The notes under the pieces: generated by a model
Database searches by the model: none
What the model saw: only the letters and a program-made list of their open reading frames with translations
Told to the model about the DNA's origin: nothing
DNA from: an uncultured Bacteroidales bacterium
GTDB lineage: Bacteria; Bacteroidota; Bacteroidia; Bacteroidales; UBA932
Direction of reading: 5' to 3'
Length of the DNA stretch: 40,982 bases
NCBI GenBank assembly: GCA_944326335.1
Contig: CALVDM010000020.1
Coordinates: forward strand, 1-40,982
Shown: positions 1-40,982 of the stretch, one piece after another
How the letters are laid out: every line of letters starts with the position of its first letter
Position numbering within the stretch: the first letter of the stretch is position 1
Translations under genes and position numbers: made by a program

Positions 1-54
1 GATAGTGCAAGCCGTACACCTAAATACGCAACAAGAGGATGACCGCAAAGCCTC

Positions 55-240
55 TTGGCTTTTGGGTCACCCCCTCTAAACGTCTTTCTCCGAAAGACTG
101 AACCCATCCTAACCCCCTGTACCCCCTATTAGGGGGATTTCGCACCTACCCGGTGCGGTCCCTACGGGACTTCTTAAGGATTTTGAGTCACCTCCGTTTT
201 TTTTCTCCGAAAGACTGATCCTTCTTAACCCGGTAGACTA
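55..240 (-). repeat. Chained-hairpin 3' element, left copy (downstream of dsbD)
   Basis: Read on the minus strand, directly after the dsbD stop, this stretch is a chain of short hairpins joined by conserved linkers. Hairpins on plus coordinates are 158-170 (GTCCC/GGGAC), 141-157 (CGCACC/GGTGCG) and 82-98 (GTCTTTC/GAAAGAC). A degenerate second copy of the last one lies at about 196-215. The linkers AAATCCCCCTAATAGG, GGGTTAAG-like and TGACCCAAAAG recur in the right-hand element at 40738-40942. Bases 1-54 hold one more hairpin (CAAGAGG/CCTCTTG) and no gene that I can see. No protein is encoded. It is probably a transcribed 3' structure or a dispersed extragenic repeat. Confidence 0.7.
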
Positions 241-14645: not shown

Positions 14646-15253
14646 CCCTTGCCGTGACAGGGGGGATAGGAAGCGGGAAATCCGCTGCATGCTCGGTCTT
14701 CAGGAGGCTGGGCATACCTGTCTATGACTCCGACTCGAGGACAAAGTGTCTGTACACTTCAGTGCCCGGCCTTGCGGAAAGGATTTCGCAAGCCATGGGA
14801 ATCTGCTTGACAGTTCCCGGAGGCGGTGTGGACCGGGCGCGGCTCGCGGAGGCAGTATTCCGGGATGCCGGGAAGCTGGCCCTGCTTGAGGACATCGTAC
14901 ATCCGGAGGTCAAACTGGATTTCCTGCGCTGGAAGGAATCTTCCGCTGGCCCGTTCGTTGTCCTGGAGTCTGCCATCATCCTCGGGAAACCTCTTTTCGC
15001 GGACATAGTGGACCGGCTACTTCTCGTGGACGCACCTGTGGAAGTCAGGATGAGGAGGGCCATGGCCAGAGACGGGGCCGGCAAGGAGGAGGTGCTGCGC
15101 AGGATGGCGCGGCAGAAACTGCTCAATGACATATCGGAAGGGAAGTCTGCCTGCAATGCAGATTTCATCATAGTCAATGACGGGGACTTCGCAGACCTTG
15201 AACGGAAGGTGACTGAAGTCTACATGAATCTGGTCAAATATAAGTTATCGTGA
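14642..15253 (+). CDS. coaE: Dephospho-CoA kinase
   Basis: Final step of coenzyme A synthesis: 3'-phosphorylation of dephospho-CoA. The 203-residue P-loop kinase has GGIGSGKS near its N terminus, YDSDSRTK, the lid-region HPEVK motif and VVLESAIILGKPLF. ATG 14642 overlaps the preceding stop by ATGA and is preferred over ATG 14624, which would add six residues. The TGA stop lies in the first hairpin of a chained-hairpin element. Confidence 0.93.
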   Translation: MTLAVTGGIGSGKSAACSVFRRLGIPVYDSDSRTKCLYTSVPGLAERISQAMGICLTVPGGGVDRARLAEAVFRDAGKLALLEDIVHPEVKLDFLRWKESSAGPFVVLESAIILGKPLFADIVDRLLLVDAPVEVRMRRAMARDGAGKEEVLRRMARQKLLNDISEGKSACNADFIIVNDGDFADLERKVTEVYMNLVKYKLS

Positions 15254-15475
15254 GTTCGATGAATTTTAATTTATTGAAAATCATCGAACTTCCGCTGAGG
15301 AGCAGAACGCAAGTTCTGCGACGAGCCCCCGGCGAGGGGGCGAATGGGGGTGGCGCCTCTTGAAAAGGGGCTGTCGCCACAGCGACTGGGGTTTAAGAAA
15401 TTTGGATTTCAAGGAAATCCATAACGACAGTTCGACGAATTCCCTGGTCCTGGACAATATAAATTCGTCGAACTG
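15253..15475 (+). repeat. Chained-hairpin 3' element, middle copy (downstream of coaE)
   Basis: Seven consecutive inverted repeats fill the coaE-DUF5606 gap. They are 15253-15290 (10-bp arms), 15302-15319 (7 bp, GCAA tetraloop), 15325-15341, 15356-15370 (GAAA tetraloop), 15373-15386, 15404-15420 and 15428-15475 (14-bp perfect arms). The first and last share AGTTCGAYGAATT. Order and linkers (CGAATGGGG, GGGGTTTAAG before the sixth hairpin) parallel the elements at 55-240 and 40738-40942, although the stem sequences differ. No reading frame is convincing. It looks like a structured 3' RNA, or a terminator chain for the nusB-coaE operon. Confidence 0.7.
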
Positions 15476-15499
15476 ACGTTAAATTATCGGATACGAACA

Positions 15500-18277: not shown

Positions 18278-18291
18278 GAATGTTAAAGTCA

Positions 18292-18605
18292 AAGGTGGGA
18301 CCGTAAGCCGGTTTCTGTTTTAATCTGCCATTTATCTACGCAACCTACCCCCTGACATCGGACGGGCAGCCCTTGATTGCCAGTATATTTGGTCTTGCAG
18401 GCTTCAGGTACGTACCCGGACATTGTCGCCAATGCCCGTTGTGAGCTCTTGCCTCACATTTTCACCCTTGCATGCCATAGGCGTGCGGTTGTTTTCTGTT
18501 ACGTGGTCCACAAGGTTTCCCCTGTCTGCGATTTCCGCAGTGAAGTGCCCTTTCCTGTCCGGACTTTCCTCGCAGAATGCTCTGCGCGGCAGACCGTCCC
18601 ACCTT
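18292..18605 (-). ncRNA. rnpB: RNase P RNA (bacterial type A)
   Basis: Catalytic RNA of RNase P, which removes tRNA 5' leaders. On the minus strand the universally conserved GAGGAAAGTCCGG occurs near the 5' end (plus 18559-18571). The matching 3' core ACAGAAACCGGCTTAC is at plus 18303-18318. The P1 helix closes the molecule: 5' AAGGTGGGAC pairs with 3' GTCCCACCTT. About 314 nt and a following terminator fit a complete gene. It lies downstream of an OYE-family gene but probably uses its own promoter in the AT-rich stretch at 18606-18640. Confidence 0.95.
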
Positions 18606-23841: not shown

Positions 23842-23872
23842 ACAGTTCCTGAGGAAAGGATAATTACATATT

Positions 23873-23975
23873 GCGGGGGTGCCCGGACATGGTTCCATCA
23901 TTTGAGGAGCCGTCGGCTGGGCTGAGAGAGTCCCATTGAACCTGATACGGCCAGTACCGTCGAAGGGAAGCAGAT
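23873..23975 (+). promoter_or_regulatory. TPP riboswitch (THI element)
   Basis: The canonical THI-box order is present: GGGGGTGCCCGG at the 5' side, GGCTGAGAGAG (CTGAGA at 23922-23927), then TTGAACCTGAT and the closing CGAAGGGAAGC (about 23961-23971). About 45 nt follow before the ATG. They contain GACGC/GCGTC and a CCCCC run that can pair with the aptamer 5' strand GGGGG, giving a plausible expression platform. Thiamine pyrophosphate binding should reduce expression of the TonB-dependent receptor downstream. Confidence 0.95.
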
Positions 23976-24020
23976 TTCTCTGACGCAGCATCGCGTCCCC
24001 CTTGCGTAACATTCAGTTTT

Positions 24021-40737: not shown

Positions 40738-40942
40738 AAGTGACCCAAAAGCCTTAAAAAGTCCCGAAGGGACCGAGCCGTAGGCTCGAAATGCCCCTAA
40801 TAGGTCGCGAACGTTTTCGCGAGAATGTCCTGTGGACATTCGAGAGTGAGCAGATAGACTATTGTCTACGGGGGTTAAGATGGGTCAGTCTTTCGAAGAA
40901 AGACGTTTGAGAGGCCGACCCAAAAGAGATTTTGAGGTCGGC
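40738..40942 (+). repeat. Chained-hairpin 3' element, right copy (downstream of rubrerythrin)
   Basis: Seven hairpins in a row lie on the plus strand: 40761-40773 (GTCCC/GGGAC), 40774-40788 (CGAGCC/GGCTCG), 40805-40822 (TCGCGAA/TTCGCGA-type), 40823-40841 (GAATGTCC/GGACATTC), 40855-40868 (TAGAC/GTCTA), 40888-40904 (GTCTTTC/GAAAGAC) and 40914-40942. The last has GCCGACC/GGTCGGC with an inner CAAAA/TTTTG and a GAGA loop, followed by TTCTTT, so it may end transcription. The linkers AAATGCCCCTAATAGG and GGGGTTAAGATGGGTCA recur in the left copy. The remaining bases 40943-40982 hold nothing I can identify. Confidence 0.75.
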
Positions 40943-40982
40943 TTCTTTAGCATAACGAGAGGAGAGATCTTCGGCTGCAATT

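Follow-up and report, generated by a model that had tools for sequence, protein, structure and literature searches.

Three intergenic elements in the window, by which we mean the whole analysed stretch of 40,982 nucleotides (contig C20 in its entirety, from a 2.34 Mb MAG of 61 contigs that is about 90% complete), consist of chained hairpins, and each lies in sense orientation directly after a stop codon. A first-pass annotation took them for copies of one transcribed RNA element, read from the sense strand. Are the hairpins kept as RNA, or are they kept as DNA? The covariance models used for scoring include R1, a model of the core built on 16 sequences, and R2, for which 17 sequences were taken, the left window copy among them but not the middle or the right one; a further model is called R3. 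The parts of the left and right copies are as follows.

About 240-31, minus strand: whole left copy (sequence).
196-240, minus strand: upstream unit, truncated at its 5' end (the previous core's tail and H6-like sequence), which precedes the full left unit (sequence).
158-170, minus strand: left H1, GTCCCG-T-AGGGAC (sequence and fold).
104-160, minus strand: left core, which takes in the last part of H1 and runs to GGGGG-TTAGG, with H2 at 141-157, H3 at 122-136 and the distal GGGGG at 113-117 (69.4 bits with R2 and 88.9 bits with R1, scores that hold by construction because the left copy trains both models).
31-98, minus strand: left H6 (98-82) and an imperfect terminal hairpin (about 76-31) (sequence).
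40740-40945, plus strand: whole right copy (sequence and fold).
40741-40887, plus strand: outer closing stem, TGACCCA at 40741-40747 with TGGGTCA at 40881-40887 (minimum-energy structure).
40761-40788, plus strand: right H1 (40761-40773) and H2 (40774-40788) (sequence and fold).
40805-40853, plus strand: insert M, a 49-nt double hairpin in place of the 3' arm of H3 (copy comparison).
40854-40874, plus strand: right H4 and the distal GGGGG (sequence and fold).
40888-40904, plus strand: right H6, GTCTTTCGAAGAAAGAC (sequence and fold).
40911-40945, plus strand: terminal hairpin beside the right core, terminator-like and without a clear T run (sequence and fold).

The core has the same order in all three window elements, namely H1, H2, a short linker, H3, H4 and GGGGG-TTRAG. 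H1 abuts H2 and is GTCCCGNAGGGAC in most copies of the own genome, with longer forms in some relatives. H3, of the form CCCC-loop-GGGG, adjoins H4, and the unpaired GGGGG and TTRAG then follow. Each of the three copies folds better than all 200 of its shuffles (z -6.8, -3.3 and -8.2); the left H6 is absent from the minimum-energy fold of 44-195. In an R2 scan of the window with filters off, the left copy came first, the right copy second (40771-40827, 29.0 bits, E 1e-7) and the middle copy third (27.8 bits, E 2.8e-7), followed by another match inside the right copy (E 0.008), while the best match elsewhere in the window had an E-value of 0.05. Since R2 was not trained on the middle and right copies, this ranking shows that the three are rightly grouped, though the alignable sequence is short. 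The hairpins, order and coordinates first described for the left and right copies thus hold. The middle copy belongs with them through its core, but it lacks the linker AAATGCCCC and H6 and is a different element with terminal inverted repeats of its own. Nor do all copies have one linker, as had been claimed: the left copy has AAATCCCCC instead. The variable hairpins of the original description are explained by insert M of the right copy, which is missing from many copies and has relatives in four middle-type copies (L021, L024, L025 and L026). Tandem units were also seen, two each at L011, L154 and L156, three at L180 and four at L181. At L042 (6581-6777) and L043 (1-219) a further hairpin module is nested inside the H3 loop of the core.

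The annotation had pointed to compensatory changes between copies, and these were found again: H2 is CGCACC/GGTGCG in one copy and CGAGCC/GGCTCG in the other, and the difference between the left and right H1 is confined to the loop. The covariation extends to larger alignments. When 17 rows were aligned with MAFFT, both partners vary at 8 of the 17 pairs; 96.6% of the cells pair, compared with 33-43% when the partners are slid. In an alignment of 96 matches (88 distinct rows), which is biased towards structure by construction because it was fitted with the model, 14 of the 17 pairs change on both sides and both-side changes occupy 300 cells, against a mean of 90 in shuffles. Two motifs, GRGYA in a loop and the single-stranded GGGGGTTRAG, are kept in the aligned sets. 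The compensatory changes and the kept motifs both favour an RNA element that acts in cis at the 3' ends of mRNAs, serving stability, termination or protein binding.

The composition of the pairs argues against this RNA reading. Among 1279 stem cells we counted 1216 Watson-Crick pairs, 12 G-T, 8 A-C and 43 other mismatches, counts that are not independent because the element rows are related, although their direction is clear. G-U pairs thus make up 1.0% of the standard pairs in the elements, compared with 7.9% (40/506) in the stems of 23 tRNAs from the retrieved loci and 7.0% (6/86) in the window's own RNase P RNA. The latter contains one A-C; the A-C count of the tRNAs may not be comparable, since all bracketed tRNA pairs were standard. 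An RNA kept on one strand should show G-T far above A-C, whereas the two are about equally rare here. The paired arms vary in concert and not by way of G-U intermediates. REPIN hairpins, which are mobile DNA, are described as commonly showing compensatory changes (PMC3116915), so such changes alone are no proof of RNA function. The RNase P RNA lies at 18288-18605 on the minus strand, and a TPP riboswitch at 23866-23985 on the plus strand of the window. No named RNA motif had been recognised in the elements, and Rfam 15 likewise gave nothing at them at the gathering threshold; at E up to 5, six element loci gave two chance-level matches, neither of them at an element.

A further point against the RNA reading is that the middle copy is a transposon insertion, with the following parts.

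15241-15247, no strand: left target-site duplication TAAGTTA, identical to the right one at 6 of 7 positions.
15249-15479, plus strand: middle element, an IS982-type MITE with terminal inverted repeats CGTGAGTTCGATGAATT / AATTCGTCGAACTGACG(T), whose ends match the IS982 of L274.
15323-15401, plus strand: chained-hairpin core inside the middle element (the R2 match given above).
15480-15486, no strand: right target-site duplication TAAATTA, identical to the left one at 6 of 7 positions.

The IS982 with matching ends is known here from L274, a contig of a viral collection, and not from the own genome; at its positions 1-1041, the ends TAACGTGAGTTCGACGAATTT and AATTTCGTCGAACTCACGTTA stand around an IS982-family transposase (NF033520, 255.6 bits). 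Middle-type copies of the own genome have the ends CGTNAGTTCGA... and ...TCGAACTNACG. The flanking 7-mers are alike at 6 or more of 7 positions in 8 of 14 own two-ended loci, exactly so in 6, compared with 15 of 182 mismatched pairs. A good target duplication is present in 6 of the 8 own middle-type loci that hold the core, C4 and C15 being without; altogether 6 of the 14 own middle-type loci have no good duplication. The coaE stop codon, TGA at 15251-15253, sits within the left terminal repeat, so that the middle element itself supplies the stop after which it had been placed. All 13 relatives compared lack the full element at the coaE junction (a fourteenth search match, L271, was left out). 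In 12 of them the spacing from coaE to the next gene (DUF5606/DUF6852) is -1 to 58 nt; in the other, L262 (G396), it is 99 nt, and a short hairpin resembling the MITE ends occupies the site of the window's full middle element. We infer that an IS982-family transposase mobilises the middle type. Further repeats that share these ends but have a shorter, different interior occur at L063-L070 on own contigs C32, C17, C9, C8, C14 and C6, and those on C32 and C6 have exact 7-bp target duplications.

The left/right type has another setting. The left and right copies lack the IS982-type ends, the exact pattern being absent from loci L001-L020 and L022. Neither a transposase nor a target duplication was found for it, and end patterns revealed no autonomous partner in the loci retrieved or in viral contigs. 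In 47 of 69 cases the 130 nt on the 3' side of the core contain a hairpin with 11 pairs or more, compared with 8 of 69 on the 5' side and 4 of 115 random stretches, and a T or A tract accompanies 22 of the 47 downstream hairpins. A terminator scan called none at the left or right terminal hairpin of the window. Direct repeats of at least 12 nt surround the core in 14 of 61 cases, compared with 5 of 361 permuted ones; the left core is flanked on both sides by TCAGTCTTTCGGAGAAA (L022). Some of these repeats are the left arm of the hairpin (for instance 21 nt at L032, 32 nt at L183 and 36 nt at L162), and those at L031, L037, L038, L140 and L048 come from a second repeat family that surrounds the core. 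The duplex energy of the enclosing stem, a noisy measure, averages -35.9 kcal/mol in the real loci and -31.7 kcal/mol in permuted ones, with 14 of 66 past the 5% limit. Another palindromic repeat, GCCGAGAGCAAAGCAAAT...TTGCCGAGGCGC..., is often found around the core at L031, L037, L038 and L140-L142. An insert in a terminator loop at L117 resembles the family by eye and was rejected as a member, as R3 gives no match. Four contigs of the MAG (the window at 40946-40982, and C46, C40 and C29 at L006, L019 and L020) end in AGCATAACGAGAGGAGAGATCTTC and beyond, beside an element-type hairpin. Because four contigs end in one sequence, a larger repeat that the assembly did not cross is probably located there.

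We then considered the position of the elements relative to genes, which were called with our own simple codon-scored caller. The loci comprise the 96-match set minus duplicate, cut and lowest-scoring rows, plus eight own and G041 copies; they are the best matches per genome and not a random draw. Both neighbours were called for 65 elements: 29 are flanked by convergent genes, 31 by genes of the same direction and 5 by divergent genes, whereas element-free gaps of at least 80 nt in the same loci (n=54) are convergent in 4 cases, same-direction in 29 and divergent in 21. Twenty further elements are at the edge of the stretch and one is within a called frame. This preference for gene 3' ends again speaks for the RNA reading, as does the junction between DHDPS-family and tetrahydrodipicolinate succinyltransferase genes (dapA-dapD-like, by Pfam), where the element has the same orientation in two species (G066 and G056). 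Within same-direction gene pairs, however, the core is sense in 14 cases and antisense in 17, and at one orthologous junction of the same two genomes, with neighbours 90% and 63% alike, the orientations are opposite (L083 and L087). The element thus tracks gene ends and not the direction of transcription. Sense orientation after a stop codon, true of all three window copies, does not extend to this wider sample, in which placement within same-direction pairs is random to gene direction. Taken with the scarcity of G-U pairs and the transposon nature of the middle copy, the lack of a sense bias makes it unlikely that these are RNA elements of the sense strand, as was first proposed.

The location is that of BIME and REP sequences: intergenic, between convergent or same-direction genes, and rare between divergent ones. 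An alternative is that transposition spread the elements and the host then kept them as chromosomal DNA sites of this kind, to which a nucleoid protein or gyrase would bind where genes converge. Their placement agrees with that reported for REPs (PMC3733652, PMC1525189). The core is conserved across genera, and positions are conserved in some species: besides the dapA-dapD-like junction, an element is kept by a tRNA-Leu in G160, G180 and G198. Their distribution speaks against such a site, which we know of no protein to bind. Further copies, expected from the first description, do exist: with the right element as query, the own genome gave 61 alignments, self-match and pieces counted, and R1 gave 22 matches in it at E up to 1, the weakest at E 8e-5. 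The numbers of matches per genome in the R1, R2 and R3 surveys are capped by the candidates that were scored (32, 17 and 13), so that high copy numbers are to be read as "at least" and weak copies may escape. R1 found matches in 21 of 150 relatives, the own genome counted; outside the genus there were just two, both weak (E about 0.003), and within the genus several are weak too, those at L090 and L093 resembling coding sequence by eye. R2 matches occur in 62 of 299 genomes of the taxonomic family, the own genome counted, and span 7 of its 25 sampled genera. Most of the sampled near-complete relatives are without the element, with R2 matches in 34 of 143 family genomes that are at least 90% complete, and the idea of a host-kept site appears improbable to us.

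Over the order, R3 matches were found in 3 of 393 genomes, all of that same family. A pattern scan of named genomes yielded 19 stretches, every one in MAGs named Bacteroidales, including Candidatus Cryptobacteroides merdigallinarum and C. avicola; two are named Rikenellaceae. The repeat family is therefore multi-copy but patchy between species and, among the genomes sampled, restricted to a single Bacteroidales family (the Candidatus Cryptobacteroides lineage). The positions seen in the window are not kept: 64 loci with orthologues of the three genes (26 for rubrerythrin, 19 for coaE and 19 for dsbD) were free of R3 matches up to an E-value of 0.1. In a named MAG outside these loci (L045), a copy lies 3' of a rubrerythrin-like gene identified by eye. 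A plasmid collection searched with the middle element and a phage collection searched with the right element gave no match.

That the elements are REPs mobilised by RAYT, a Y1 tyrosine transposase, is very unlikely, and RAYT was rejected as the mover for now: of the 12 relatives selected because they have 5-17 core matches, 7 carry a Y1_Tnp gene, but none was found in the other 5, and the own genome, with its completeness of about 90%, gave no hit to PF01797 even at an E-value of 10. The tandem hairpin repeats around several Y1_Tnp genes are unlike the family by eye, and the retrieved stretch contains a core at 1 of 9 Y1_Tnp loci, separated from the gene by about 510 nt. In relatives, the RAYT-like Y1 transposase genes at L212, L214, L215 and L216 each have tandem hairpin repeats of their own, which differ between genomes by eye.

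We consider it likely that the three elements belong to a single superfamily of palindromic DNA repeats that are mobile but non-autonomous, a REP/MITE variant with its core in at least two vehicles. One vehicle would be the IS982-mobilised middle type. The other, the left/right type, usually sits beside a long terminal hairpin, and in some cases the core stands between two copies of that hairpin's left arm; this type would spread and expand by recombination or copying between such hairpins. The hairpins would be kept as DNA. The simplest causes of the joint change of their arms would be correction of one arm from the other as the DNA replicates, or else recognition of the hairpin as a cruciform or in single-stranded form. 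The preference for 3' ends, above all those of convergent pairs, could arise from insertion beside terminator-like hairpins and from loss from promoters, and if transcript ends are affected, this would be a secondary consequence. Several observations count against the mobile-DNA reading. They include the failure to find a transposase or target duplication for the left/right type, the middle-type loci with no good duplication, the occurrence of the matching IS982 on a viral-collection contig, the lack of terminator calls at the window's element ends, the tract at 22 of 47 downstream hairpins and the 43 stem cells with other mismatches. The core is also kept across more genera than a neutral passenger needs, and the dapA-dapD-like and tRNA-Leu junctions are conserved between species. 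More tentatively, the core itself might be a mobile DNA module that changes vehicles, travelling within the IS982-type MITE, inserting also by terminator-like hairpins where it leaves left-arm direct repeats of 12-36 nt, and accepting hairpin modules in its loops; its arms would then co-evolve by hairpin-templated copying, mimicking RNA covariation.

Strong covariation, often read as proof of a functional RNA, stands here beside the absence of a strand preference and hardly any G-U pairs, and one element type combines covariation with target duplications. This suggests a cheap test for RNA motif candidates that derive from repeats, consisting of G-T and A-C counts together with orientation. 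Our data also link IS982 MITEs to gene-end palindromes in uncultured gut Bacteroidales via a common core, and bear on the breaks of MAG contigs at such repeats.

A search of a literature collection with few subscription journals turned up no paper that appeared to describe this chained-hairpin family. Among known systems, MITECca01 of the Bacteroidota endosymbiont Cardinium is an IS982-derived MITE of about 240 bp, without a transposase gene and mostly intergenic, and is thus like the middle copy in build (size, IS982-like ends and no transposase gene); the portion of the account available does not mention a chained-hairpin core common to other repeats (PMC9769881). The left and right window copies have neither such ends nor target duplications. 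REP, BIME and REPIN sequences resemble the window family as short palindromes that lie between genes close to their 3' ends, in clustered copies and with a patchy distribution (PMC3733652, PMC3116915, PMC1525189), and REPINs also in the compensatory changes of their hairpins (PMC3116915). Unlike these sequences, the window family has four or five chained hairpins in a fixed order and a core common to an IS982-type MITE. It differs as well from the repeat seen around the RAYT genes of relatives. With the structured RNAs of Rfam 15 it shares a covarying multi-hairpin architecture, and it is set apart from them by the strand and wobble evidence. The small dispersed repeats of cyanobacteria (Elhai 2008) are reportedly tiny, structured, nested in one another and in mini-transposons, and show compensatory changes; they are said to differ in phylum, in length (21-27 nt) and in their unrelated sequence. 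What is new here is an ordered core that extends across several genera and is common to an IS982-type MITE and to repeats beside hairpins.
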